From: a virus
Length of the DNA stretch: 24,162 nucleotides
Strand: one strand, 5' to 3'
IMG/VR virus record: IMGVR_UViG_3300034198_029340
Coordinates: 1 to 24,162 of that record
Below are positions 3,909-22,453 of this stretch, piece after piece. The notes beneath the pieces were generated by a model. The model worked only from the letters and a program-made list of their open reading frames with translations, had not been told where the DNA came from and did not search any database. Made by a program: the position numbers and the translations under genes. Every line of letters begins with the position of its first letter. Positions within the stretch are counted from its first letter, which is position 1.

Positions 3909-4535
3909 TTAAAAATATTGCGCTAGGTTATCTTGCATGTGTGGGTTGTTTGCTAACACTCGATCCTTAAGCATTCTACGAGCCTTTCGAATCTTGGTTT
4001 TAACCGTGTTTAGGTTCATTTGATATTTCTCAGCAATTTCATTGCCCTTCATCAAATGAACCTCCTTATCAATTAGAATAGATTTTTCTAGACATTCTGG
4101 TAACTGTCGCATCTCAAGAGTTGTCATTGAATACAGAGAGTCCATGTAGATCTCACGCTCAAAGTTAGAAAGAGAAGTATCCTCGATTATTGGAGGAGTC
4201 AGCATATTATCAAGCCGTACTGCAAAATTGGTCTTTAGCTTATGCTTATGTAGCAATGATTCATTTTTTGCAATAGTATAGATCCAGGTAGTAAATCTAA
4301 ACTTATCACTATATGACGCTAGCCCTTTAAATATTTTGAATAGGGTATTGTGCAAAACCTCATCCGTTTCATCTGGATCGTTAAAAAACTTCCAAATAAA
4401 ATACTTAAGTTTTGGATACATGATTGTTGAAAGCCGATTTCTATCCCTTTCTGTATATTCTCCACTCTTTATTTTCTCAGCGAGAGATTGCATCTCATCG
4501 TTGAGTTGGCGATTGACCGCGTCATATGAACTCAT
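3909..4535 (-). CDS. Phage RNA polymerase sigma factor, ECF-like; candidate late-transcription sigma (gp55 role)
   Basis: A 208-residue protein with the two-domain layout of group IV sigma factors. A region-2 domain spans about residues 38-105 with the core helix LHNTLFKIFKGLASYSDKF followed by FRFTTWIYTIAKNE, which is the usual promoter-melting and -10 recognition part. A region-4 domain spans about 135-192 with the helix-turn-helix EIAEKYQMNLNTVKTKIRKA. There is no anti-sigma gene next to it. It sits between PhoH and small late genes, much as T4 gp55 is phage-encoded for late transcription. The TATAAATA-type boxes in this window are its plausible targets; that link is inference. Family call good, role moderate. 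Confidence 0.85.
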   Translation of the reverse strand: MSSYDAVNRQLNDEMQSLAEKIKSGEYTERDRNRLSTIMYPKLKYFIWKFFNDPDETDEVLHNTLFKIFKGLASYSDKFRFTTWIYTIAKNESLLHKHKLKTNFAVRLDNMLTPPIIEDTSLSNFEREIYMDSLYSMTTLEMRQLPECLEKSILIDKEVHLMKGNEIAEKYQMNLNTVKTKIRKARRMLKDRVLANNPHMQDNLAQYF

Positions 4536-8226: not shown

Positions 8227-8472
8227 TTAGTTTAGACGATTTTCGTTTTTATCAAGTGCCGGGTTTGCAAATATTTTAATCTGCTTAACAGCCTCAATGT
8301 GTTCATATATGAATGTCTCAATGTATGATAGGAATCCATCAAGTACAGGATTTGCACCAAACATCTGGTTTGACAATGTCTTGGGTAGGATATTGTCCTT
8401 GTATCTGTATCCTAAATGAAGTCTTTGGTCCTTACGGTTATAGAGAGGCCAATATAGTGAGTTTCTTATCAT
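8227..8472 (-). CDS. Hypothetical protein, 81 aa
   Basis: An 81-residue protein beginning MIRNSLYWPLYNRKDQRLHLGYRYKDN and ending ALDKNENRLN. The first half is basic and aromatic, the second half a probable amphipathic helix (FLSYIETFIYEHIEAVKQIKIF). Its ATG overlaps the stop of the gp6-like baseplate gene by four bases (8469-8472) and its stop lies five bases before the candidate small terminase, so it is translated from the same message. The coupling to gp6 suggests a small tail or baseplate component, but no family is recognised. Confidence 0.6.
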   Translation of the reverse strand: MIRNSLYWPLYNRKDQRLHLGYRYKDNILPKTLSNQMFGANPVLDGFLSYIETFIYEHIEAVKQIKIFANPALDKNENRLN

Positions 8473-10232
8473 AATAATGTGAGTCTTTTTCTGATTGACC
8501 TAACTGATTTAATCTCAATGTTGATAGCGCCAAGAGCTGAATCTGAAATTGCAGTTTGATATGCATTACCGTTTCGGTCTGTCCAACCACCTCGAATTAC
8601 TGGGAATTGAGTTGGTGTCATTATGATATCGTTAAATTCATCAAGCCCAATTAATTGAGTCTCGTCCCTAGCTGGATTATTTGAAAATGCAAGTTCATTA
8701 AGTTCAGATAGAATAGTAACACTAACTGAGTCAACTCCATTGATCTCTTCAATTATTTTAATAAGATCACTTTTTGGAACTCGATTATTTCGATTAAGCT
8801 TAATAAAGTAATTGCCAATTTTGTCAGCTATGTCTGACTTAATAACATCACCGGCTATATCATCAAATGCAATAACACTGACATTGATTACATATCTAAT
8901 GATTACAGGATCAAGAATATTAACCTCACTTGATATCATCTTTGTACCAGACCGCTCAATATACTTTAGCAGTTCAGTCTTTTGAAAAGCGGTTAACGAA
9001 AATTTAGAAGTCGGTAGATTAAAGTAGTCTGCACCTGACTTAAACATTTGAGAAACATCTGGTACCAGGAACAGGCTTATTATTCGGGTGTCTGGTACAA
9101 TAGGGGCAACTCCATACTTCTTACGAAACTCAATTATCTCCTTTTTAGTTGAGTCACTAATTTTACTATATGGCTCATCTAAGAATACCCTAACTGTTGA
9201 AAACATTTGCATCTTATGCAATAAAACCTCATAGTTATCAACATTGACTAGGGCAAAGTTTTTAGAGGCCTTTGGTGCAATAAGTCGGGTTAGCGCAATC
9301 TCCTCTGGATCAACTCCAAAGCTCGGTGGACTCACTGTGTAAATATCAAAATAGTCATTTAGATTAATCTCGTCACCGATTGGAGAGAATGCTGTCTCAG
9401 CAAAGGTAAACAGCACCTGCGATGGGTCATCAACCTTAATATTACCACCAGCGCCTTCTGATACCAGATACTCAACTGTAATTTGAGCACCAGCCTGCGG
9501 AATCTTACCAAATGATCCGTTACCGAAATAGAGATCAAGGCCATTTGTTATACCAGTCTTAAGCACATAGCCCTTTGCATTTCTGGGAATATCAAGCATT
9601 GAATCAAACCTGGTCCATGGCTCTCCATTGACATAAACATTAACTCGAAAGTTATCAATGTAATAATTATTTGGATAGCCTAGCTGATAGCTCTCCATTG
9701 CTATACCTTTGCCAGTAAAGGTTTGATTCTCAATTATTCCCTGCTTTATACTAAAGATCGCTGGAGTATCTGGGCCAGTAAGATTTAACCGGATTTCGTC
9801 TTGTGGTAGCTCTATCACATAGGTTAGGCCGTTTACTTCGCATCGTAGCCTAAGAAGGTCATTTAATATAACCTTATTGGCTGGCGCAGGAATGCCAAGT
9901 TTCCTAACTAGTCTAACTTGAGCAGTTGCACCAATTGCCCGGCTTGGATTATGGCCGGCGATTGCCGCTAATGAATAGATTGAAGATGGCCTAGATGCCT
10001 CATATATGTTGAGCTCAGTGATTGAATCTTCAATGTAATAGAATATAAGCTGACTCAGGTTTTCAAATACAATTAGTAGCTGACCGAATGGTGATGCTGC
10101 TGTGAATATTGTCTTTGCCTGCTTGAATCTGTCCTGCAAAAAGGATATGGTCTCGCCCAGAATATCATTAATTCTAATCTTGAGACTTGTAAAGAGTCTA
10201 AGCGATGTATTTTGGTCTGAAATATTAGCCAT
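8469..10232 (-). CDS. Baseplate wedge protein, gp6-like / baseplate J-like
   Basis: A 587-residue protein whose centre carries the signature of gp6 and baseplate J proteins: LDLYFGNGSFGKIPQAGAQI followed by TVEYLVSEGAGGN at about residues 232-264. The N-terminal 100 residues are helical, with a segment FYYIEDSITELNIYEASRPS typical of the part that packs against neighbouring wedge proteins. The C-terminal half alternates strands and helices, including a region of the type IIRYVINVSVIAFDD and LIKIIEEINGVDSVSV found in J-like domains. T4 gp6 is 660 aa, so the size fits. It would form the ring joining baseplate wedges. A GATAAATA box lies 23 bp before its start. Confidence 0.85.
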   Translation of the reverse strand: MANISDQNTSLRLFTSLKIRINDILGETISFLQDRFKQAKTIFTAASPFGQLLIVFENLSQLIFYYIEDSITELNIYEASRPSSIYSLAAIAGHNPSRAIGATAQVRLVRKLGIPAPANKVILNDLLRLRCEVNGLTYVIELPQDEIRLNLTGPDTPAIFSIKQGIIENQTFTGKGIAMESYQLGYPNNYYIDNFRVNVYVNGEPWTRFDSMLDIPRNAKGYVLKTGITNGLDLYFGNGSFGKIPQAGAQITVEYLVSEGAGGNIKVDDPSQVLFTFAETAFSPIGDEINLNDYFDIYTVSPPSFGVDPEEIALTRLIAPKASKNFALVNVDNYEVLLHKMQMFSTVRVFLDEPYSKISDSTKKEIIEFRKKYGVAPIVPDTRIISLFLVPDVSQMFKSGADYFNLPTSKFSLTAFQKTELLKYIERSGTKMISSEVNILDPVIIRYVINVSVIAFDDIAGDVIKSDIADKIGNYFIKLNRNNRVPKSDLIKIIEEINGVDSVSVTILSELNELAFSNNPARDETQLIGLDEFNDIIMTPTQFPVIRGGWTDRNGNAYQTAISDSALGAINIEIKSVRSIRKRLTLL

Positions 10233-10262: not shown

Positions 10263-10295
10263 AGCCCAATTCTTTATTTGGCTAAGCGTGACCGC

Positions 10296-10303
10296 TATAA
10301 ATA
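10296..10303 (+). promoter_or_regulatory. Late-promoter-like box TATAAATA upstream of tmRNA
   Basis: An exact match to the T4 late promoter octamer on the plus strand, ending 28 bases before the tmRNA 5' end. A sigma-70-like TATAAT at 10311-10316 is an alternative -10 element. Either would give a short 5' leader to be removed during maturation. Confidence 0.45.
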
Positions 10304-10331
10304 AAGTTAGTATAATAATCTTATACAATAT

Positions 10332-10701
10332 GGGGACGAAAGGATTCGACGTAGGTTATTCCAGTCCACTTGCATGCCGGGAAAGATGCTCTACCCGTAA
10401 AATTCGTATCAAAACGTACGTGGCAACACTACATCCTTCTGGAGCCTTGTTAACGCAACTGTTAGCACTCCTGCTGGTACTGAGCTTGTAGAAGCATAGT
10501 CCAGTAAGCGGCAACTGCTTAAGTAAACCAAAGTTGCAAAACCAGTATGGCACCAGGGCCAAGTCTAACCCAGGTCGGCTTTTCGCAGTAAGCCGTTAAC
10601 TAATCTGCTTGTTGGCAACATTCGAAAATGTTGGTAAGCATGTGAATGAAGGTGTGCTTGAGAGCAATACGGACGCGGCTTCGATGCCGCCGTCTCCACC
10701 A
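10332..10701 (+). ncRNA. ssrA: Transfer-messenger RNA (tmRNA)
   Basis: A complete 370-nt tmRNA. The acceptor stem pairs GGGGACG (10332-10338) with CGTCTCC (10691-10697), followed by encoded ACCA. The D-loop hallmark GGATTCGACG follows the 5' strand, and the T-arm is GCGGC-TTCGAT-GCCGC near the 3' end, preceded by the typical GGAC. A first pseudoknot can be drawn with stems CGGG/CCCG and GATGC/GTATC. The tag frame opens exactly 11 nt after it, the same spacing as in E. coli. Further pseudoknot-capable hairpins lie between the tag stop and the T-arm. Its role is rescue of stalled ribosomes by trans-translation, and it depends on SmpB from host or phage; no smpB gene is seen here. It lies between divergent operons with its own terminator. 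Confidence 0.95.
10422..10499 (+). other. tmRNA tag reading frame (25 codons plus stop)
   Basis: The frame starts with GGC at 10422, 11 nt after the first pseudoknot, and ends at TAG 10497-10499. The tag begins GNTTSFWSLVN and ends TPAGTELVEA. A Gly first residue agrees with Bacteroidetes tags as I recall them (for example GENNYALAA), but this tag is about twice as long and ends LVEA, not the usual ALAA-type degron. The two other frames fit the spacing rule less well: one stops earlier, the other ends in a Leu-rich run. Confidence 0.7.
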
Positions 10702-10705
10702 CAAC

Positions 10706-10738
10706 AAAGGGGTTCCAAATTGGAGCCCCTTTCTTTTT
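10706..10738 (+). terminator. Rho-independent terminator of the tmRNA
   Basis: An 11-bp stem AAAGGGGTTCC (10706-10716) pairs with GGAGCCCCTTT (10722-10732) with one G-U pair. It has a 5-nt loop and is followed by CTTTTT. It begins four bases after the tmRNA CCA end and so terminates plus-strand tmRNA transcription before the gp15-like gene. On the opposite strand there is no clear U-tract. Confidence 0.9.
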
Positions 10739-10746
10739 GATAAATA
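10739..10746 (+). promoter_or_regulatory. Late-promoter-like box GATAAATA
   Basis: Directly after the tmRNA terminator and six bases before the ATG at 10753. If used like a T4 late promoter, transcription would start at or near the start codon, implying a leaderless or nearly leaderless message. It may instead reflect the A/T-rich start context. Confidence 0.35.
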
Positions 10747-10752
10747 ACTAAT

Positions 10753-11502
10753 ATGAAAGCTCTTAATACTGACGATATATTTCTTAGGAACCTAACAATT
10801 GCTCTGCTTGACCTGCTAAATGGATCAATGAGCATTGACCTGGCTAGAAATGATACGGTTGAAACATTTAATGTGCCGTTCCTCTATAATTACGGCACGG
10901 ACGAAGGATTTCTCAAAGACTTCTATATTGGTCTACCTGATGATTGCCGAATCCCGGTTGCTGAGGGCACATATGATATTGTTCCAAGAGGAATTGTGAC
11001 TCTTAGCACATTTCAGGTAAAAACATCGGATATTACAAATAAGTTTGTTCGAGGTAGCTTTACTGAACCCGAAAAGGGCTCACAAGATGAAAATGTGTTG
11101 ACCGGTTATTCAGCCCAGCTCTACTCTCTACCTATGTCAGTTAAATTCGATGTCAAGATTATTTGTGATAATCTAAATAAAGCATTTAAGATAGCTGAGC
11201 GCATGATTGATGTCAACTATGCAAATCGAGTAATGTATTTCCAATATCACGGAGTAAGAATCCCAGCTCAATTCCAATTTCCAGCAGTAGAAACGGTTGA
11301 TAAGATCTACAAGTTTACCTATGCTGAAAATAATAAAATTAATGTCTCTTTATCGCTTGATGTTGAGACCTATTTCCCAAGCTTTGAACAGAGTTCACGC
11401 AGAAAGAGTACCAATGTTATGGAAAGAATAAACATTGGTGTTAAGGACGCAGGCGGAACCCTATTAAAGGATGAATGGGTTGATCAAAATACCAAGGCCT
11501 AA
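10753..11502 (+). CDS. Tail sheath stabiliser/terminator, gp15-like
   Basis: A 249-residue protein whose layout resembles T4 gp15 (272 aa). The N-terminal helix FLRNLTIALLDLLNGSMSIDL is followed by a strand TFNVPFLYNYGTDEGFLKDF. The middle has the paired segments LPMSVKFDVKIICDNLNKAFKIAERM and a Phe/Pro-rich strand, and the C-terminal strand is INVSLSLDVETYFP. In T4, gp15 caps the tail and joins sheath to head. The match is by pattern memory, not a search, so a related neck protein is possible. The gene follows the tmRNA terminator and its stop overlaps the next ATG by one base, so the two plus-strand genes form an operon. Confidence 0.65.
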   Translation: MKALNTDDIFLRNLTIALLDLLNGSMSIDLARNDTVETFNVPFLYNYGTDEGFLKDFYIGLPDDCRIPVAEGTYDIVPRGIVTLSTFQVKTSDITNKFVRGSFTEPEKGSQDENVLTGYSAQLYSLPMSVKFDVKIICDNLNKAFKIAERMIDVNYANRVMYFQYHGVRIPAQFQFPAVETVDKIYKFTYAENNKINVSLSLDVETYFPSFEQSSRRKSTNVMERINIGVKDAGGTLLKDEWVDQNTKA

Positions 11503-12284
11503 TGAAATATCTACTTGAGTTTCGGCAATTTTTTATAAACGAAGGCGGTAATGCCTTTCCAGATGCTAAAAGCATAGATCAAGCGGATGTACTACCTGCA
11601 TTTAATAAATTCAAAGCGGAGATTGTTCAAATATTTGGAGGCCCTGAACCTGAATTAATTGGATCTTGGCGTCAAAAAGCCGTATCTGGTGATCTTGATA
11701 CACTAGTGTATTCAGACCTATCGCTTGAAGAGATTTCCAATAAATTACAGGGCCTAGGCTTTGAAACCCGTGTATTTTACGGTTTTAATATTGTCTCAGT
11801 TAAGTTTGAAATTGCACCTGGCCATTTTGCTCAGTTTGATATGTTTATCCGACCACTTGACATAAATCGTGAGATAAATGATCTTTTCTATAAATCTCCA
11901 GATAATGAAAGGTATTCAACCAAGCATCGAGTTTTTCTGCTATTTGCAGCACTTGACTCAATGAAGTTTGATAAGCTTGAACAGGACGGTAAGGTTAAAA
12001 GCTTTAAGGGTTATATGCTTAGACCAGATGGACTCTATGAGTTTACAAAGGAGCTAAAGCGGCTTAACTACTCAATTGTTGGTAAACAGAAATTAACTGA
12101 TGATATTGACAAAATATCTGAGATTCTATTTGGCAAGGTATATCCTTACCAGAAATGGAATACTTTTGAGCAAACTCTTGCACTACTCGGTAATAATCCT
12201 GAACTGGATATGCCAGCAATCCTAGCCGAGTACAGAAAAAAGTTAGAGAACGAGGGTCTTCGTATTCCGGCTGAGATTAGTTAA
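11502..12284 (+). CDS. Nucleotidyltransferase-fold protein (DNA polymerase beta superfamily-like)
   Basis: A 260-residue protein with the hallmark of the Pol-beta-type nucleotidyltransferase fold: a GS motif at residues 54-55 inside LIGSWRQKAVSGDLDTLVY, two metal-binding Asp residues (Asp64, Asp66), and a third Asp in the strand FAQFDMFIRP (Asp113). This GS-W/F-R...SGD-x-D form is closest to the family X polymerase palm. The N-terminal finger and helix-hairpin-helix parts of a full polymerase are absent, so it is more likely a small nucleotide- or end-modifying transferase. It is coupled (one-base overlap) to the gp15-like gene, an unexpected neighbour. The substrate cannot be read from sequence. 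Confidence 0.7.
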   Translation: MKYLLEFRQFFINEGGNAFPDAKSIDQADVLPAFNKFKAEIVQIFGGPEPELIGSWRQKAVSGDLDTLVYSDLSLEEISNKLQGLGFETRVFYGFNIVSVKFEIAPGHFAQFDMFIRPLDINREINDLFYKSPDNERYSTKHRVFLLFAALDSMKFDKLEQDGKVKSFKGYMLRPDGLYEFTKELKRLNYSIVGKQKLTDDIDKISEILFGKVYPYQKWNTFEQTLALLGNNPELDMPAILAEYRKKLENEGLRIPAEIS

Positions 12285-12891
12285 AGTCTAATTCAAGGTC
12301 GAAATTGAAGTATTTAAAGTCCACGGTAAAGGTTTGAAACTGTGGTGTAGTTGACGAATACGATAATGTTAGGGCACTAAGGCTTGTAATCATGGGCCGG
12401 TTAAATATAATTGAGCTTACCCCATAGCCTTCATTATTTAGTAAGGTGAGCCTGATTGGCGAAAAGTATGGGTGATTGCCATTCTGCGTCTGCGTATTAC
12501 TTAGTGCCTGGCCCAAAGAATTTTGGGTGTTATTTGGATTGACATTGGCCGGCTCAAGATAATTGAGCAGGTTATCCATCATAATAAAGTAGTTGAGATA
12601 GGAGTCTGTTAACTTAAAGGTTAATTTCAGGTCCCGTGTAAACATGTCAGCAATTGGTTTTGCAGATTGTACCTCCTGTACCTTACCCAATGTTCGGGTT
12701 TGAGTTGGTAATATTGTTGCTAACCCAGGAAAATTAACTGTTTGGATAGTAGATGCCATGAAATCTGATATTGACCGGTAAGGTAATATCAGATTCCGGT
12801 AGTACTTTTCGTACTTTACATCTATCTCAGAATTAAAGAAATCCTGTGGTAGATTTACTAAAAAACTGTTTTGTCTTGAATTCAGTACCAT
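12277..12891 (-). CDS. Tail tube-fold protein (gp19/gp54-like)
   Basis: A 204-residue protein with a pattern typical of tail-tube proteins: an early strand STIQTVNFPGLATILPTQTR, a central LKLTFKLTDSYLNYFIMMDNLLNYL (strand then helix), a strand PIRLTLLNNEGYG and the characteristic end LSALTLSYSS...FQTFTVDFKYFNF. T4 gp19 is 163 aa and the tube initiator gp54 about 320 aa; this is between them, so the exact role (tube or tube-baseplate adaptor) is open. Its stop region overlaps the end of the convergent nucleotidyltransferase gene by eight bases, with no terminator between. It starts ten bases after the glycosyltransferase stop. Confidence 0.6.
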   Translation of the reverse strand: MVLNSRQNSFLVNLPQDFFNSEIDVKYEKYYRNLILPYRSISDFMASTIQTVNFPGLATILPTQTRTLGKVQEVQSAKPIADMFTRDLKLTFKLTDSYLNYFIMMDNLLNYLEPANVNPNNTQNSLGQALSNTQTQNGNHPYFSPIRLTLLNNEGYGVSSIIFNRPMITSLSALTLSYSSTTPQFQTFTVDFKYFNFDLELDFN

Positions 12892-12901
12892 ACTGAATTA
12901 T

Positions 12902-15205
12902 CTATACGAGACCAAGTACAGACTTCAGCTTATTGATTACTGTCTCACTTGTGATAGTTTTGGAACACTCAAATTGGCGGTTTGTATCCTTGTGTATTGG
13001 ACACCAGTTCCAGTCAGCTGGGTCAAGTCTATGAAAGTTAAAACAGCCTGAGCACTTACCAGCCGGCGCATTTATCCTAACAATATCCTGCATTTCATTA
13101 TAGTCTTCAGTAAAACCTGATATCATTATGACGGGCGTAGTTGTTGCCCAGGCTAGCCAAGTAAGACCGCTACTGATTCCAACAAAAGCCTCAGCTGATT
13201 CAATCTCCTCAAGTGCTTTATCAATTGGCCCAGCTGGTAACTTTCTAGCGCCAGTTGGATACATGTTACCCATAAAACCGTTTGGTTCAGATGATACAAT
13301 AACAGCTTCATAGCCATTGACATTACACCAATTGACAACATCTTGCCAACCAGTTGGATTATTCCAGTACTTTGTTTGGCACGTGCCGTGTATTCCAATT
13401 GCAATCTTTTTTTGCTTGGCAACTTTAGGTAGAGTGAGAACCGGTTTAGTATCTTTGAAATCTAGTCCAAGTATATCAAATGCAGCCTTTTGCATTGGCT
13501 GAGTCTTAACCTCTTTTGGATTAAGAGTCTTGACTATTTGATCGTTCTCATCATAATAAAATCCAATTGAATACATTGCCGTAAGGCTACCAACATTTGA
13601 ACCAGGCTCAATAAACTCAATCTCTGGATAGTTGTCCTTAAACATGTGATTCCAAAAGGTTGAGCACATCATCCTGCACCCGTGCTTTTTACGAAACTCT
13701 TCGGCGGCTGGCATCCAGGCAAGAGTATCACCAAGCGATTTAGACTCAACTGACACAAGCACATTGGCCCCAGCTAAATCAAGCTTTTCATCTAGTAAGA
13801 CCTCATTTGTCTTTAGGTCAGTAACTCGATAGCCCCAATCCACGTAATAGGCTCGATTTGTTCTGGCCCACATGTTATTGGTTATCTTTTGTGAAAAATC
13901 AATATTGCCGGTTGACCTGTCAATAAATTCAACCAAGAACTCTCCAGGTTCTTCCCGGATCACTTCAATGAATGCTCCTTTAACTGCATGATAGTTAATA
14001 CTATCAGGTCTACGATTCGCCTGGTTCACATGCTTGATGTGATCTTGCTTTTCCAGGAGACGTTCATTTGCAATCTCAGCAGCTCTCTCCCAACTAAACT
14101 CGGATCTGATCTTTTTAGATTCTTTCAAAGCCCGTTTCTTATGCAGTGGCCAGTTTTCATAAGCATCACGCATTACCTGTCTAAGGTCATCAAAATCAGG
14201 TTCATACCAATTACATGATTCCTCAAAGCCAGTTGCCTGAATTTCGCCTTTAACCTTAACTGGTAGGCCTCTACCCTCTGCAAATTCTAGCTGACCTGAC
14301 ACATTTGAATAGATTGATGGAGTTCCACAAGCCATTGCCTCAATTAGTGGCAAATTCCAGCCCTCTGACCTAGAACACGATAGGAAAACATCAATTGACC
14401 GGAGTAGATCAATATACTCTTGAGTAGGAGGTAGATGAATTATCTTAATACGTGGGTCCTCAAGCCCATAGTGAGCTAATCTTTCCTCTGTTGTTTGCAT
14501 ACCGTCTTTTGCAAAACGATTATCAACAGATAAGATTAGATCAATTGGCTCATCCTCTGAAAATTCGGCTAAGAAAGCCTCAATCATTTCAGTGGTTGCT
14601 TTACGTGGTTCCCATCTGCCGAAAATTGCAAATGTAAATCGACCTGTGCCCGTTAATGGATGCCCGGCTTCACCTGGACAAAATACGGTACCGTCAACTC
14701 CTTCTGGCACAACTGCAATTCGATCAGCTGGATAACCTTGAGCAATAGTCATATCGCGTTGCCATTTGCTTGGAACCCATAGCTCATTTATCTCAAGTAA
14801 CCGGTTAAAGAATTTAGCAGGTTGTCGAGTTGCTTCCCAAACATTATAGGCAATAGTGTATTTTGGATAGCCTTGATAAAAATAGGCATGACCTGTTTCA
14901 CCAAGCACAATATTGACCTCTGCCTGGCCTGGATTTGGCCAATTTGTATAGATTGGAAAGTCCTTAAGCTGACCGTTGTCGGCCCATAGAGTCTGCTCAA
15001 CCATCATGGTTTTCAGCTCATCTGTCATATAGGGTTCCTCATTATGAGGCTCATCTGACGGCTCTGTCCAGGTTGGGCCAATTGAAAAATTACGGACCTC
15101 AACTGGTCGTAATTTAGCTAGTTTAGTAAAAAATTGTTGGGCATGATTATTGAAACCGGTTGTGCCAATTAGCGGCACGTGGGCCTTTATCTTTAGGTCC
15201 TGCAT
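12902..15205 (-). CDS. Bifunctional glycosyltransferase: GT4 domain fused to autotransporter heptosyltransferase-like domain
   Basis: A 767-residue protein. Residues about 1-395 form a GT-B fold GT4 unit: FGRWEPRK near 195-202 and the EX7E motif in SEGWNLPLIEAMACGTP (Glu281, Glu289). A strand-rich segment (about 405-485; FLVEFIDRSTGN, YYVDWGYRV) leads into a second unit with SLGDTLAWMPAAEEFRKKHG (490-509), IHGTCQTKYWNNPTGW (605-620), GISSGLTWLAWATTTPVIMI (676-695) and a Cys finger C718-x2-C721-x13-C735-x11-C747. That second half resembles TibC/Aah-type O-heptosyltransferases, which modify Ser of autotransporter repeats and bind iron through four Cys. It probably glycosylates virion fibres or a host surface structure; the target is inferred from the neighbouring Ser/Thr-rich fibre genes. 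Confidence 0.85.
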   Translation of the reverse strand: MQDLKIKAHVPLIGTTGFNNHAQQFFTKLAKLRPVEVRNFSIGPTWTEPSDEPHNEEPYMTDELKTMMVEQTLWADNGQLKDFPIYTNWPNPGQAEVNIVLGETGHAYFYQGYPKYTIAYNVWEATRQPAKFFNRLLEINELWVPSKWQRDMTIAQGYPADRIAVVPEGVDGTVFCPGEAGHPLTGTGRFTFAIFGRWEPRKATTEMIEAFLAEFSEDEPIDLILSVDNRFAKDGMQTTEERLAHYGLEDPRIKIIHLPPTQEYIDLLRSIDVFLSCSRSEGWNLPLIEAMACGTPSIYSNVSGQLEFAEGRGLPVKVKGEIQATGFEESCNWYEPDFDDLRQVMRDAYENWPLHKKRALKESKKIRSEFSWERAAEIANERLLEKQDHIKHVNQANRRPDSINYHAVKGAFIEVIREEPGEFLVEFIDRSTGNIDFSQKITNNMWARTNRAYYVDWGYRVTDLKTNEVLLDEKLDLAGANVLVSVESKSLGDTLAWMPAAEEFRKKHGCRMMCSTFWNHMFKDNYPEIEFIEPGSNVGSLTAMYSIGFYYDENDQIVKTLNPKEVKTQPMQKAAFDILGLDFKDTKPVLTLPKVAKQKKIAIGIHGTCQTKYWNNPTGWQDVVNWCNVNGYEAVIVSSEPNGFMGNMYPTGARKLPAGPIDKALEEIESAEAFVGISSGLTWLAWATTTPVIMISGFTEDYNEMQDIVRINAPAGKCSGCFNFHRLDPADWNWCPIHKDTNRQFECSKTITSETVINKLKSVLGLV

Positions 15206-16400: not shown

Positions 16401-19232
16401 TTATTGGAATAGGCCATATGCTTGTAGATCATCAATGACAGAATTTATTAAATTTTTAACAACTGTAACATCTGCGGCTAATTGACCCAATGAAGTTCTT
16501 GCATTTGCATCAATCGTTGCACCACCGGATGGAGCAGCATAAGTAGAATTTGAGTGTGTCTTAGTAGTAGTAGAATAGGTTTGGGTATACACACTTGCTC
16601 GCGTACCTCCAGCTAATCCAAAAAATCCTAATGTTCCCCCAGAAGTTCCTAATGTTAAATTTCCTCTAATAATAGTATTAACTGTACCATTAGTAGCTCC
16701 AATAGTAATTGCGGTTGTACTACCGTTTGCTCCTCCAGTACCTATATTTATAGTTTTAGTAAATGTACTTGCTGTAATTCCTGTTCCTATATTTATTTCA
16801 CTAGCTGCTGTTTGAAGTGTAGCAAAGTTAATGGTTGGTGAATAAGAACACATGTGAATAGTATCAGTTACACCTATATGTGAAAATAAATGCCAACCTA
16901 TTCTGTTATTAAAAGACGCTGCACCAAATCCAATTTCATAACTTAAGGCTGGTGTTACTGGATAGTATGGAAAAGTTGTAGTTGATGCTCCACCGAAAAC
17001 TGCGCCTATTTCAAAAGATATTCTAGCAGAAGAAAAGCCGTTGCTACCCATTAAACTAGCTCCACTTACATATGTACCAGTTGGAACAGTACCTGGTATT
17101 TTTACAACAACTGAATCTCCTATATTAGTTGTTGTATAAGTTAAAGCAGAAACTCTTCCTGAGCCAACAAAATTAGAAGGAACAACAGTAGGAGATTGAT
17201 TACCTCTACCGAAAACAACAATTTCAAAAACTGCAGGTATTACGCCGGCTGTTGCAATTGTAAATGTAATATCTATATCTGCTCCATTCTGCACAACGCT
17301 TGTTACTGTACCATAATTTCGGGCAGTGTTTCGTGCAACGGCTAATACAACTTCATTATATGTACCAGAATTAGCAGTATAACTAGTAGAATTGATTCTA
17401 AAAAATGGATAACCTTTAGAGATACCCTGACCTGAATCGAAATCTCCAGCGGCTCCAACTGCATAATTATAAAAATGATAACTTGAAAATGGAAATACAC
17501 CGCCGAGGTATGATCCAGTAGTTGAAAACCAAATAGCTGGCGATCCACCGATGCCTCCTCCGGCGAGTCCGTTACTAGTAGAAACTCCTATTAAAGCATG
17601 AGCTCCAGCATTAGAGCTAAAATTAATTTTAGTTCCAAGAGAAACCGCACTACTAGCATTAAATATTGGAAAATAATCGGCAAAGGTAGGGTAAGTTGGA
17701 ATTGCAAACGATAAAAAACTACCTCCAGCCATAGTAGCAGAAGGCACTGTTGTCGAACCTCCTCCTATTGTTAAGGTTGAACCTGCTGGACCACTTAGGG
17801 TTCCGGATATGGCTAATCCGCCAGTTATGCTAGAGCCGCTTCCGCTAAGTCTAAGTCGTTCAGCTGCTGCAGCCCCAGCTAATGAAGTCCTAAACACTAA
17901 ATCAACCGTAGGATTTCCAACACTGGCACCATATGAACTCAATACAGAGTCAATTGCCGAACCCGAAATACTAGTTGGTGTTGATCCTATTCCACTGATA
18001 AAATTTAAAGTAGTACCAGTTCCTACTGAGGAATATAATGTCATAAGAGCATTACCTCCAGAATAAGTACCACTAGCTGTAGTTATAGCAGTTCCAGCTA
18101 TTGCATTTGCATACGATGATGCTAAAAACAAGGTAGTTCCAGAAGAACCGTATACGTAATAATCAGTAGTTGTAGCCAATCCGGTAGTTCCAGTAATATT
18201 AGCTAACCTTACTAGAGTACCAGTAGGAGTAGTTGCGCTTGCAGTAAAGGTTAATTGAACAGATCCGCCAACGCCATTTACAATAGTCATACTGGAATAA
18301 GTTCTAGTTTGGCTATTATCGTATAGGTTTCTTATATTTAATGCTGTGCCTAATGAATTTTGAGTAGTTGTTACAGACGATGACGTTATAGCACTGGTAA
18401 AAGTCTTAGCTCCAGCAATAGTTTGAATACCTTCTGTCATTACAAAGCTTGCAGCAGCACTTACATCTGGAATAGTATAAACCCTAGATGCGGCTGGTGC
18501 AGGAGAAGTTATTGTAATCGTATTAGTTGTACCAAGTATAAGTTGGTTGGTTGTAGCAGAGACAGTTAATGTAGAACTAAAAGTCTTAGGTCCTGCAATT
18601 CCTTGAGTGCCTTGAGTCATTACAAAGCTTGCATCAGCATCTGTCACAGGAATGGTAAGAGTCCTGCTGGTTGTGAGAGTTGCTGTTCCCAAGATTATAG
18701 TAGAAGTGTGTGGGCTAGTTTGAGTAAAGGTGTCATCTATTGTGGTACCTGCAGCTGGGTAGAGTGCAATTGCGCGAACTGCTCCAGCATTCACTGCACC
18801 ACTTCCAACTCCAGCAGGCCCTTGAGCACCACTTGTCCCACTTGAGCCAGAAGTACCTGAGCTACCTGATGTACCAGAACCAGACGTGCCTGAGCTACCT
18901 GATGTACCAGAACCAGACGTGCCTGAGCTACCAGATGTACCATCTGTTCCTGATGTACCTGAGCTACCGGATGTACCATCTGTTCCTGATGTACCTGAGC
19001 TACCTGAAGAACCTGCTATACCAGATGTACCTGAGCTGCCGGACGTACCGTTTGACCCAGAAGAACCTGACCCGCCAGTTCCTCCGCCAGTTGATGAAGT
19101 CCCAGAAGAGCCTGATGTACCTGAAGTATTGTCAAAGTTAGACTTCCATGCAAAACCATTCCAAATCCAGTCATTGCCTGCATACGAATAGGTTTGGCCG
19201 GACGTGGCTGGGTATGGGAATAGTATTGCCAT
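16401..19232 (-). CDS. Large modular tail fibre with collagen-like Gly-Thr-Ser region
   Basis: A 943-residue protein. Residues 1-32 are a short N-terminal module (PATSGQTYSYAGNDWIWNGFAWKS) shared with the next two fibre genes. Residues about 36-146 are a low-complexity Gly-Thr-Ser region with long runs of Gly-X-Y triplets. Residues about 160-290 hold two copies of a fibre repeat (R-x-x-TIP...ASFVMT-[EQ]-G...IAG-[PA]-KTF). The middle is a long Gly/Ser/Thr-rich beta region, and the end (GFFGLAGGTRASVYTQTYS... then a helix LAADVTVVKNLINSVIDDLQAYGLF) resembles C-terminal trimerisation ends of environmental phage fibres. The likely role is host recognition at the virion surface. An AATAAATA box lies upstream. 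Confidence 0.85.
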   Translation of the reverse strand: MAILFPYPATSGQTYSYAGNDWIWNGFAWKSNFDNTSGTSGSSGTSSTGGGTGGSGSSGSNGTSGSSGTSGIAGSSGSSGTSGTDGTSGSSGTSGTDGTSGSSGTSGSGTSGSSGTSGSGTSGSSGTSGSSGTSGAQGPAGVGSGAVNAGAVRAIALYPAAGTTIDDTFTQTSPHTSTIILGTATLTTSRTLTIPVTDADASFVMTQGTQGIAGPKTFSSTLTVSATTNQLILGTTNTITITSPAPAASRVYTIPDVSAAASFVMTEGIQTIAGAKTFTSAITSSSVTTTQNSLGTALNIRNLYDNSQTRTYSSMTIVNGVGGSVQLTFTASATTPTGTLVRLANITGTTGLATTTDYYVYGSSGTTLFLASSYANAIAGTAITTASGTYSGGNALMTLYSSVGTGTTLNFISGIGSTPTSISGSAIDSVLSSYGASVGNPTVDLVFRTSLAGAAAAERLRLSGSGSSITGGLAISGTLSGPAGSTLTIGGGSTTVPSATMAGGSFLSFAIPTYPTFADYFPIFNASSAVSLGTKINFSSNAGAHALIGVSTSNGLAGGGIGGSPAIWFSTTGSYLGGVFPFSSYHFYNYAVGAAGDFDSGQGISKGYPFFRINSTSYTANSGTYNEVVLAVARNTARNYGTVTSVVQNGADIDITFTIATAGVIPAVFEIVVFGRGNQSPTVVPSNFVGSGRVSALTYTTTNIGDSVVVKIPGTVPTGTYVSGASLMGSNGFSSARISFEIGAVFGGASTTTFPYYPVTPALSYEIGFGAASFNNRIGWHLFSHIGVTDTIHMCSYSPTINFATLQTAASEINIGTGITASTFTKTINIGTGGANGSTTAITIGATNGTVNTIIRGNLTLGTSGGTLGFFGLAGGTRASVYTQTYSTTTKTHSNSTYAAPSGGATIDANARTSLGQLAADVTVVKNLINSVIDDLQAYGLFQ
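18795..19127 (-). repeat. Low-complexity repeat coding for Gly-Ser-Thr triplets
   Basis: Covers residues about 36-146 of the large fibre. Units such as GTSGSSGTSGTDG recur, with Gly at every third residue over long stretches and almost no Pro. The DNA is a family of near-identical short repeats (plus strand CCTGATGTACCTGAGCTACC and variants), which also creates spurious long open frames on the opposite strand. Confidence 0.9.
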
Positions 19233-19282: not shown

Positions 19283-20068
19283 TTAAAAGTTATAGTTTAG
19301 GTAATCAAATGAATAGCTAAAGAATGTTCCAAACCTATAATATGCTCTAATACAAACCGCTAAACTTCGTAATCCTGGAAGAGTAGCTGACATGGTTAGA
19401 TCGGAGCCATTTACCGGAGCTGCCGCTTGTATGCCTGTCCTGGTTTCGTACGTAGGGAATGAGTCCTTACTTGTATTCCAAATAAAACCTGCCTCAGTAA
19501 ATTCGCTAGTTAGTCCAGCCCCAGGCCCAGTAAAACCAAAACCAAATTCAACAGTTGCTACGATATCACTGTTTGATGGTGTTACACTACTCATAAATGA
19601 CTGAGGTAAACCCCAAGGATATAGAGCTGAATACCCTATTCCCTGCTCATTTTGTGCATATGCTCGATAATATGCAATCTCGCTAACACTAACACTAAGG
19701 TCTGGTATTGAAAATCCAGGTGAAACTGTTGGATCGCCTGTTCCAGCATAAGTACCATAAGAGTAGTGATCGGTTGGATATTCACTAATATGATTAGGAT
19801 TTGAATCTATTGTTATATAAATACCCCAATCACTTATACCAGAGGCTCCTTGATTTAGCACAAGCCCTCCAAATGTTGCATTAAAGGTAGAGTTGTTTTG
19901 GACAATTGAGTTTAGCTGAACAGTTGGTAATATACCAGATGTTGTGGTTGTAGTAGTTGCAGCCCCGCCAACTGCTGCACCTGAGAACCTCCAAGCTGAG
20001 CCGTTCCAGGCCCAACCCTCGTAAATTTGACCCGTATTTAAGCTCGTTGATGGAAAGTCAAGTGCCAT
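19283..20068 (-). CDS. Tail fibre/adhesin protein with shared N-terminal module and poly-Thr linker
   Basis: A 261-residue protein. Residues 1-29 (MALDFPSTSLNTGQIYEGWA then WNGSAWRFS) are the N-terminal module shared with the 20096-22453 protein and, more weakly, the 943-residue fibre. A poly-Thr linker of six residues (38-43) follows. The rest reads as two beta-sandwich-like units: a segment EIAYYRAYAQNEQGIGYSA resembles fibronectin type III-like modules of Bacteroidetes surface proteins, and a similar LAVCIRAYYRFGTFF ends the second. The shared N-terminus probably fixes the protein to a common tail site while the C-terminal part binds a host ligand. An AATAAATA box lies 20 bp upstream of its ATG. 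Confidence 0.75.
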   Translation of the reverse strand: MALDFPSTSLNTGQIYEGWAWNGSAWRFSGAAVGGAATTTTTTSGILPTVQLNSIVQNNSTFNATFGGLVLNQGASGISDWGIYITIDSNPNHISEYPTDHYSYGTYAGTGDPTVSPGFSIPDLSVSVSEIAYYRAYAQNEQGIGYSALYPWGLPQSFMSSVTPSNSDIVATVEFGFGFTGPGAGLTSEFTEAGFIWNTSKDSFPTYETRTGIQAAAPVNGSDLTMSATLPGLRSLAVCIRAYYRFGTFFSYSFDYLNYNF

Positions 20069-20088: not shown

Positions 20089-20096
20089 TATTTATT
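20089..20096 (-). promoter_or_regulatory. Late-promoter-like box AATAAATA
   Basis: Reads AATAAATAGACCAAATT on the minus strand, 20 bp upstream of the 20068 start. It touches the stop codon of the upstream BspA-like gene, which is the same arrangement as the box at 23218. Confidence 0.5.
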
Positions 20097-22453
20097 TAAG
20101 GTCCAGTTGTTGTAGTGGTCGTAGTTGCACAGGCAGCTCCCCAATTAGGTTTAGGTAGGGTCCAGGCAGTCGCGCCTGTACTGAAATTTGAAGGCTGAGT
20201 AGGTATTAGCGAAACACACCAACCACTAAGGTCCTGATTAAATATGGATGCTCCATTAAACATTGAAAGCATACTAATGACCTTTGCGGTGTTCCAAGTG
20301 GTAATTGCTGAGTTAAACGAGGTTGCACCTGAGAACATTTGATTCATACCAATGACATTTGATGTATTCCAGCTATCGAGAGGCTGATTAAACGAGGTTG
20401 CATCACGGAACGTTGAATTCATAGCTGTGACACTGCTAGTATTCCAGCTATCGAGAGGCTGATTAAACGAGGTTGCACCTGAGAACGTAGCGCTCATACC
20501 AATGACATTTGATGTATTCCAGCTATTGAGAGGCTGATTAAACGAGGTTGCACCTGAGAACATCTGATTCATGTTAGTGACATTTGCCGTATTCCAACTA
20601 TTGAGAGGCTGATTAAACGAGGTTGCACCATAGAACATTAAGCTCATATTACCGACATTAGCTACATTCCAACTACTGAGCGGCTGGTTAAATGCGGTTG
20701 CATTTTGAAATATTCTACTCATGTCTGTGATGCTTGCTGTGTTCCAGCCAGCAACTGACGAGTTAAACGAGGTTGCACCATAGAACATTGAGCCCATGGC
20801 TATTAGACCGGTAGTGGTCCAATTATTAAGCGGCTGGTTAAACGAGGTTGCATTGTAGAACATAGCTGCCATATTAGTGACTTTTATTACGTTCCAACCA
20901 TTAAGAGCCTGATTAAAGGCTATTGCAGATTGGAACAGGTTAGCCATGCGTGTGACATTTGCTACGTTCCAGCTATTGAGCGGCTGGTTGAATGAGCCTG
21001 CATTTCGAAATACATTGCTCATATCTGTGATATTCGTTGTGTTCCAGTCAGCAACTGATGAGTTAAACGCGGTTGCACCATAGAACATTGAGTCCATGCT
21101 AGTGAGCGCAGTAGTGGTCCAATTATTAAGAGGCCGATTAAAGGCTGATGCAAGTTGGAACATACTAGTCATACTACTGACATTTGAAACGTTCCAGCTA
21201 TTAAGAGGCTGGTTAAATGAGGCTGCACCGTAGAACATTGCGACCATATTAGTGACGTTTGCTACATTCCAGCTATTAAGAGGCTGGTTAAACGAGGTCG
21301 CGTTGTAGAACATTGAGCCCATATTAGTGACATTTGCTGTTCCAGTTCCACTGGTCCATGCAACGGATGAGTTAAATGAGGTTGCACCATAGAACATTTG
21401 GTACATGTATGTAACACTTGAAACGTTCCAGCTATCTAGCGGCTGGTTAAAAGAGGTTGCGCCATAGAACATTGAGCCCATGTTAATAACACTTACTGTA
21501 TTCCAGCTATCTAGCGGCTGATTAAATGAGGTTGCATTTTGAAATATGCTACTCATACTTGTAACGCCACTAGTATTCCAACCAGTAACAGATGAGTTAA
21601 ATAAGGTTGCGCCTTGGAACATACTGCTCATATTAGTGACATTTGCTGTATTCCAGCTATCAAGAGGCTGGTTAAATGAGCTTGCACTATTAAACATTTG
21701 AGTCATGTTAGTGACATTTGCTACATTCCAGCTATTAAGAGGCTGATTAAACGCGGTTGCACTTGAGAACGTAGCGCTCATATTAGTGACATTTGCTGTA
21801 TTCCAGCTATCAAGAGGCTGGTTAAATGAGCTCGCGGATTCGAACATTTGAGTCATGTCAGTGACATTCGCTGTGTTCCAATTGCTAATATCATAATTAA
21901 AATATTGGGCTGATTGGAACATACTGGCCAAGCTGGTCACCTGACTTAGATTTGGAGTATTGGTTGCGGTGAATCCAGTTAGGTTACTTGCTCCAGCAAA
22001 CATGGATTCCATTGAAAGCCAGCCGTCATACGACCAGTCCGTAACATCTGTTAAGTAAGGTGCAAGGTCTCCAGCTATAAAATGCGGAAATACTCCGGTA
22101 ATTGCAATTGACCAACTTGGACTGTCTCCACCGGATAAATTAATTATGTGATCATCGGTTAAGCCGTATGCACTACCACTTTGACTAGGATCACCAATAT
22201 TATACCAGGAAAGGTTGTAATCATATGGATATATTGGGACACCTTCCTTGGTTTTTTGAATTGATATAGTAACTTCATTTGGTGAATCGGTTAGTATAAA
22301 TGTAAAACCGTTAGGTGGTGCTGTTGTAGTAGTAGTAGTATCTCCAGGCGCGCCTATTGCCTCGGTAAAAAAGTCCCAAGCAGATCCATTCCAGATCCAA
22401 GCTTCGTATATTTGGCCGACTGTTAGACCGGCTGATGGAAAATCTAATGGCAT
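20096..22453 (-). CDS. BspA-like (DUF285) repeat adhesin / tail fibre
   Basis: A 785-residue protein. Residues 1-30 are the shared fibre module (FPSAGLTVGQIYEAWIWNGS), residues 39-44 a poly-Thr linker, and residues about 50-147 a beta-rich lead-in. Residues 148-752 consist of 24 units of about 25 residues of the form M-x-x-MF-x-x-A-x-SFNQPL-[DN]-SWN-[TV]-x-x-V-T-x, the bacterial surface 26-residue repeat of DUF285/BspA-type leucine-rich proteins. The end has two Cys (WCVSLIP, GAACA) typical of these arrays, then a second poly-Thr run and GP. Such repeats bind host surface or matrix ligands in bacteria; here they probably form the receptor-binding part of a tail fibre. Confidence 0.88.
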   Translation of the reverse strand: MPLDFPSAGLTVGQIYEAWIWNGSAWDFFTEAIGAPGDTTTTTTAPPNGFTFILTDSPNEVTISIQKTKEGVPIYPYDYNLSWYNIGDPSQSGSAYGLTDDHIINLSGGDSPSWSIAITGVFPHFIAGDLAPYLTDVTDWSYDGWLSMESMFAGASNLTGFTATNTPNLSQVTSLASMFQSAQYFNYDISNWNTANVTDMTQMFESASSFNQPLDSWNTANVTNMSATFSSATAFNQPLNSWNVANVTNMTQMFNSASSFNQPLDSWNTANVTNMSSMFQGATLFNSSVTGWNTSGVTSMSSIFQNATSFNQPLDSWNTVSVINMGSMFYGATSFNQPLDSWNVSSVTYMYQMFYGATSFNSSVAWTSGTGTANVTNMGSMFYNATSFNQPLNSWNVANVTNMVAMFYGAASFNQPLNSWNVSNVSSMTSMFQLASAFNRPLNNWTTTALTSMDSMFYGATAFNSSVADWNTTNITDMSNVFRNAGSFNQPLNSWNVANVTRMANLFQSAIAFNQALNGWNVIKVTNMAAMFYNATSFNQPLNNWTTTGLIAMGSMFYGATSFNSSVAGWNTASITDMSRIFQNATAFNQPLSSWNVANVGNMSLMFYGATSFNQPLNSWNTANVTNMNQMFSGATSFNQPLNSWNTSNVIGMSATFSGATSFNQPLDSWNTSSVTAMNSTFRDATSFNQPLDSWNTSNVIGMNQMFSGATSFNSAITTWNTAKVISMLSMFNGASIFNQDLSGWCVSLIPTQPSNFSTGATAWTLPKPNWGAACATTTTTTTGP
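20198..22012 (-). repeat. Array of 24 tandem 75-bp coding repeats (BspA-like)
   Basis: Each unit codes for about 25 residues; unit 1 has 27 and unit 9 has 28. Within it, units 12-15 (20873-21172) and units 16-19 (20573-20872) correspond one to one, for example PLNNWTTT, then MxSMFYGATxFNSSVAxWNT, then FNQPLxSWNVANV. The array therefore also grew by duplication of a block of about 300 bp. Confidence 0.9.

Follow-up and report, generated by a model that had tools for sequence, protein, structure and literature searches.

The fusion gene and its locus

The stretch of DNA analyzed here, the window, is a 24,162-nucleotide (24-kb) fragment of an uncultivated virus (IMG/VR record IMGVR_UViG_3300034198_029340) and encodes on its minus strand a fusion glycosyltransferase of 767 amino acids (12902..15205). 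The open reading frame (ORF) begins with ATG, and family and fold evidence divides its product into an N-terminal GT4 domain and a C-terminal domain of the TibC type. A sequence-only reading had located this gene correctly without stating its strand, and had placed it in a tail operon, a setting borne out by PHROG matches: the gene lies in a minus-strand run that also includes a tail tube protein gene directly downstream (12277..12891; phrog_45), a baseplate wedge subunit gene (8469..10232; phrog_219) and terminase. The family, fold and motif matches of the fusion ORF are not due to chance.

The TibC-type half

Residues 400–763 (12917..14008, minus strand) score 266.7 bits against NCBIfam TIGR04414 (hepto_Aah_TibC), the family of autotransporter strand-loop-strand O-heptosyltransferases, for which the curated equivalog cut-off is 200 bits, and match the sequence of TibC in the Protein Data Bank (PDB 4rap) at E = 2.7e-53. 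We predicted the structure of the fusion protein with AlphaFold (19 relatives in the alignment, mean pLDDT 82.5), and the model aligns with TibC over 359 residues, the N-terminal beta-barrel included (Z = 39.2, rmsd = 2.3).

The functional residues of TibC named in earlier structural work (PMC4358343) were mapped onto the fusion protein by alignment. The catalytic Asp, the two phosphate ligands and the sugar-binding Trp are kept, with Asp110, Thr226, Lys230 and Trp305 of TibC corresponding to D493, T608, K612 and W683. All four cysteines of the putative iron finger (12965..13054, minus strand) are also present with exact spacing (C718-x2-C721-x13-C735-x11-C747) and align with Cys339, Cys342, Cys358 and Cys370 of TibC. 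Asp493, the counterpart of the catalytic base (13727..13729, minus strand), shows no variation among 77 phage homologues and 18 from genome contigs, and the same is true of the other catalytic and Cys positions. At residues relevant to the dodecameric ring assembly of TibC, F265 of the thumb and F368 are matched by F644 and F745, while V266 is replaced by M645. By sequence and predicted fold, then, the C-terminal half is a complete enzyme of the TibC family (BAHT) that retains its catalytic residues, in agreement with the sequence-only reading, which had recognized both the heptosyltransferase and the four-Cys finger.

The GT4 half

The N-terminal half (residues 1–392; 14030..15205, minus strand) is assigned to the retaining GT4 enzymes of GT-B fold by matches to PF00534 (3.1e-11) and phrog_2170 (1.1e-33). 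Residues 2–393 of the model align with GlgM (PDB 6tvp, Z = 31.2) and MshA (PDB 3c4q, Z = 30.9), although residues 41–92 have low model confidence. The EX7E motif (E281 and E289; 14339..14365, minus strand) is intact, and family match and model together indicate a complete GT4 domain. This is what the earlier reading had described, and the structural comparison it had called for thus finds the expected relatives for both halves.

The fibre and its Gly-X-Y region

Upstream of the fusion gene, in the same minus-strand run, lies the gene of a 943-amino-acid fibre-like protein (16401..19232) that carries the candidate acceptor region. The protein matches collagen-like tail PHROGs, the BppL_N lower-baseplate motif (29.2 bits) and Pfam Collagen (23.9 bits, just under the cut-off of 27.2). 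Its counterparts in the relatives L003 and L057 reach 782 and 366 bits for Pfam Collagen, a match that is likewise strong in L441 and over the cut-off in L428 (Methylobacter luteus). In the N-terminal part of the window fibre, residues ∼38–142 (18807..19121, minus strand) form a collagen-like Gly-X-Y region (GTSGSSGTSG...) of 24 strict triplets in two runs, 18 of them with Ser at Y, which is the predicted glycan acceptor.

The repeats as a whole are strict Gly-X-Y triplets, with a longest uninterrupted run of 638. The Y position is Ser in 3597 of 4211 triplets (85%) and Thr in 79, the X position is Ser in 2250 and Thr in 1655, and proline is nearly absent. Because TibC acts on Ser but leaves Thr unmodified (PMC4358343), the Ser at Y is the predicted acceptor. 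An extreme load of such repeats is found in the 735-kb phage LR756501.1, where the Gly-Thr-Ser-Gly pattern matches at more than 1000 places.

Relatives of the enzyme

TibC relatives are common in phages: a profile scan of viral sequences found at least 566 stretches that encode one, and the best 80 were kept. Fusions of the window type also occur in L003, in L004, in Microcystis phage Mel-JY01 (L005), where the protein has an additional segment in the middle, and in two contigs (L425, L426) that were binned as Bacteroidota. About half of these 80 relatives are standalone and the rest are extended at the N-terminus; the extensions tested proved to be another type of GT4 or a methyltransferase domain. 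Where standalone genes were examined, the gene immediately upstream encodes a separate glycosyltransferase (in L015, GT4 plus methyltransferase). That the two are joined in some phages and neighbours in others suggests, as such patterns classically do, that they work together. In the literature searched, we found no paper linking TibC-type enzymes to phages or to collagen-like repeats, and no biochemical data on this clade.

An enzyme in L002 is 97% identical and stands beside a different fibre (130-2364) that also carries Gly-X-Ser triplets. Comparison with the window fibre (16401-19232) shows two near-identical phages in which the fibre has been swapped and the enzyme kept. L003 and L004 have a second, 292-amino-acid TibC paralogue immediately after the fusion gene (10280-11158), which has no N-terminal barrel and retains both the catalytic residues and the four cysteines.

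Linkage to Gly-X-Ser repeats in phages

The starting observation was that in L003, L004, L005 and L006 alike, ORFs with (S/T-S-G)n repeats lie close to the enzyme. We therefore used a DNA pattern for G-T-S-G-[ST]-S repeats to select contigs (length at least 15 kb) and compared them with a random sample picked by an arbitrary 14-mer and with a control sample picked by Gly-Pro-X repeats, whose contigs mostly encode ordinary collagen-like runs; a terminase-based control was set aside because most of its contigs were too short. TIGR04414 scored over its cut-off in 17 of 50 repeat contigs and in 0 of 50 random ones (Fisher P = 3e-6, uncorrected for phylogeny). With the samples restricted to contigs of 66 kb or longer, 15 of 19 repeat contigs had any match, against 0 of 13 random contigs with a match over the cut-off. 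None of the 49 Gly-Pro-X contigs scored over the cut-off, so the idea that the linkage is a mere property of collagen-like fibres was rejected. The two genes are also close together, with a repeat within 8 kb of TibC in 12 of the 17 TibC-bearing repeat contigs, where ∼4 would be expected from random placement (P ∼2e-5). The missing correction for phylogeny is mitigated by the Gly-Pro-X control and by data from cellular genomes.

Linkage in bacterial genomes

Bacterial and archaeal genomes were also scanned, which yielded 18 loci, chosen regardless of repeats. At 14 bacterial TibC loci, a Gly-X-Ser/Thr run lies within 1.2 kb in 12 and at 5.6 kb in one, and is absent from one. The partner proteins are short, and several start with a segment that reads as a signal peptide or lipobox. 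In whole genomes of 2.3–9.2 Mb the pattern is present in 13/14, mostly with all or nearly all matches beside TibC; in one 3.8-Mb genome, all 33 matches fall within ∼1.5 kb of it. In Methylobacter G145 and G146, the exact matches are elsewhere and a weaker repeat adjoins TibC. The background is low: of 274 class-mate genomes, only two have matches to a more stringent pattern, in one case through a Gly-Thr-Arg repeat, and TIGR04414 exceeds its cut-off in one of the 274, the centre genome itself. In Methylobacter and other Gammaproteobacteria the pair stands beside housekeeping genes, outside any phage context. TibC-family genes are thus genetically linked to proline-free collagen-like Gly-X-Ser proteins in both phages and bacteria.

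The target repeat of the autotransporter enzymes, TIGR04415, was found in none of 26 records with TibC relatives, the 24-kb window among them, while an E. coli control was positive. The sequence-only reading had argued by analogy with repetitive beta-structured adhesins, a part of it that finds no support, TIGR04415 being absent from all records tested. Its proposal that a fibre is the target gains support, with the collagen-like Gly-X-Ser repeat as the linked candidate. The C-terminal half is therefore of the TibC family by sequence and fold, and by context is not an autotransporter-modifying enzyme.

The sugar donor

Genes resembling the adenylyltransferase (C-terminal) part of HldE occur in 14 of 48 phage records with TibC. 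HldE-like genes, akin to the heptose-1-phosphate adenylyltransferase and heptose-7-phosphate kinase domains of that enzyme, lie just downstream of TibC in L015, L023, L027, L032, L034, L050, L057 and L072; profile tests of the adenylyltransferase covered L015, L023, L032 and L034, and those of the kinase L015 and L034. These genes point to an activated heptose. In L057 and L072, a cupin-like gene (KGWGKEVIIENNELYCGKLL; 9076-9459 in both) between TibC and the HldE-like genes perhaps encodes another enzyme of the sugar pathway. The huge phage LR756504.1 (636 kb) carries a gene for the sedoheptulose-7-phosphate isomerase GmhA (430182-430640) that scores over the curated cut-off, 27 kb from TibC; found in only one of the 48 records, GmhA was rejected as part of a phage pathway.

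Other genes of the window

Three adjacent minus-strand genes, those of the fibre-like protein (16401-19232), of its neighbor (19283-20068) and of a 785-amino-acid PARCEL (DUF285) repeat protein (20096-22453; Pfam 777 bits, many repeats), encode a common N-terminal motif, FPxxxxxGQxYxxWxWNGxAW, which is probably a shared virion-anchoring module bearing exchangeable C-terminal parts. A Sigma-70 family (ECF-like) sigma factor (3909-4535, minus strand) is encoded beside terminase and a PhoH-like gene. The gene at 11502-12284 is on the plus strand inside the otherwise minus-strand run; its product has a nucleotidyltransferase-like GSWRQKAVSGDLD motif and returned zero matches in a Pfam search.

Interpretation

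We consider it probable that the fusion protein is a bifunctional protein O-glycosyltransferase that modifies the phage's own fibre on Ser in its Gly-X-Ser collagen-like regions, probably with heptose, and that the GT4 half extends or complements this sugar. The collagen-like Gly-X-Ser repeat as a likely, hitherto unrecognized substrate is strongly supported by the genetic linkage; the identity of the sugar and the role of the GT4 half we infer. The TibC half would take heptose from a donor activated with ADP or another nucleotide and attach it to the Ser hydroxyl, chiefly at Y, and its iron finger and thumb, as in TibC, would drive oligomerization on the repetitive substrate. If the chemistry is TibC-like, this half would add the first sugar and the GT4 half the second. 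The GT4 half may extend the first sugar or may instead add a separate second one. Elsewhere, other GT4 domains, methyltransferase domains or an adjacent gene would take its place. The outcome would be a collagen-like stalk densely coated with sugars, which may stand in for proline and hydroxyproline in stabilizing the fibre, or may shield it. Sugars are thought to contribute to the hydration networks and stability of glycosylated bacterial collagens such as BclA (PMC8968730), and by analogy with these proteins a stabilizing role on a Gly-X-Ser stalk is plausible.

Several observations weigh against this reading. The window repeat is short and lies 3.6 kb from the enzyme gene, with three small genes between. 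Viewed from the TibC side, a repeat is found within 8 kb in only about one third of phage loci, and of four large contigs with no nearby repeat (G015, G017, G032, G034), three carry it elsewhere and one not at all. The exact DNA pattern does miss some true repeats, as in Mel-JY01, which has repeats of the SGTSGTRG type and no exact match. The HldE-like genes, with rfaE_dom_II and rfaE_dom_I as their best families, score well under the curated cut-offs, and none was recognized among the ORFs of the window fragment. The equivalents of Asp110, Thr226, Lys230 and Trp305 are kept, but Arg286, which reads the adenine in TibC, is replaced by Ala664. In phages, 76 of the 77 domains have V, L, T, A or I instead of this Arg, which is present in 6 of 18 genome-contig domains. 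ADP-heptose is hence not assured; as Arg286 is a donor-specificity residue, its loss limits the claim about the donor and not the family membership.

Another part of the virion could be the one glycosylated, such as the PARCEL protein or the beta-structured shaft of the fibre, in line with the analogy drawn in the sequence-only reading. The PARCEL protein is highly repetitive and belongs to the same gene run, and the known substrate of TibC is a beta-helix (PMC4358343). However, PARCEL-type repeats were absent from all other TibC loci tested and TIGR04415 from all TibC records tested, while Gly-X-Ser repeats recur at TibC loci, which makes this an unlikely alternative; as a general TibC partner, the PARCEL repeat protein was rejected because the other loci tested lack such repeats. 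The PARCEL repeat takes its name from Listeria and Mycoplasma surface proteins. A host-takeover enzyme that changes surface sugars or lipopolysaccharide, to block superinfection or to adapt the receptor, would fit the PHROG category of the GT4 half (moron/host takeover) and the action of GT9-like heptosyltransferases on lipopolysaccharide. We regard this as quite unlikely, given that the enzyme retains three features of a protein O-glycosyltransferase (N-terminal barrel, iron finger and thumb region), that its gene sits within a tail gene run, and that the repeat linkage extends to bacterial chromosomes. Many of the positive contigs are from large phages, possibly of shared ancestry, and TibC and Gly-X-Ser genes might simply travel together in the tail-fibre modules of one lineage, with no enzyme–substrate relation. 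The pairing beside bacterial housekeeping genes, with secreted or lipoprotein-like partners, and the Gly-Pro-X fibres that come without TibC make such co-travel very unlikely.

Glycosylation of the phage's own collagen-like fibre may be one case of a wider arrangement. The TibC family has so far been tied to autotransporter adhesins of pathogens, and the linkage predicts a second, perhaps larger, class of substrates, the proline-free collagen-like repeats of environmental phages and bacteria. A bolder version, which we hold tentatively and at somewhat less than even chances, is a widespread glyco-collagen system of phages and bacteria, in which TibC-type enzymes would place heptose on nearly every Y-position Ser of proline-free collagens, the sugar would take over the stabilizing role of hydroxyproline in very long fibres, and the donor would sometimes be phage-made. 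A second substrate class of this kind would explain long phage Gly-X-Y fibres that lack proline or hydroxyproline. Many tail fibres would then be glycoproteins, a point that bears on host recognition and on proteomic work in which modified peptides are missed. For these genes, the automatic name "autotransporter O-heptosyltransferase" probably misstates the substrate, and the enzyme–repeat pair may offer a simple means of making glycosylated collagen-like materials.

Comparison with known systems

With TibC and AAH (BAHT family; PDB 4RAP, 4RB4), the fusion protein shares the domain architecture, the beta-barrel, the four donor- and active-site residues that are kept and the iron-binding cysteines. 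It differs in being joined to a GT4 domain, in being phage-encoded, in the change of Arg286 to Ala, and in its linkage to collagen-like Gly-X-Ser repeats in place of the autotransporter target repeat. At the position of TibC Pro300 it has Ser678, as does AAH, which has Ser there and accepts both heptose epimers (PMC4358343). The N-terminal half resembles the retaining GT4 enzymes (MshA, PDB 3C48 and 3C4Q; GlgM, PDB 6TVP; phrog_2170) in its GT-B fold, EX7E motif and Z scores of ∼31, but is here one half of a two-enzyme polypeptide and contains the low-confidence stretch noted above.

The predicted glycosylated Gly-X-Y stalk has parallels in BclA of Bacillus spores and in other glycosylated bacterial collagen-like proteins (PMC8968730). 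In bacterial collagens the X position is typically Pro and the Y position Thr, whereas the repeats described here have almost no Pro, carry Ser at Y and go with an enzyme of the TibC family. The collagen-modifying enzymes of Mimivirus, reportedly described by Luther et al. in 2011, act on hydroxylysine, are of eukaryotic type and do not belong to the TibC family. Two articles describe Mimivirus as encoding enzymes that glycosylate its own collagen (PMC8968730, PMC9546862). The phage fusion would resemble Mimivirus in this respect, as a virus-encoded means of glycosylating the virus's own collagen.
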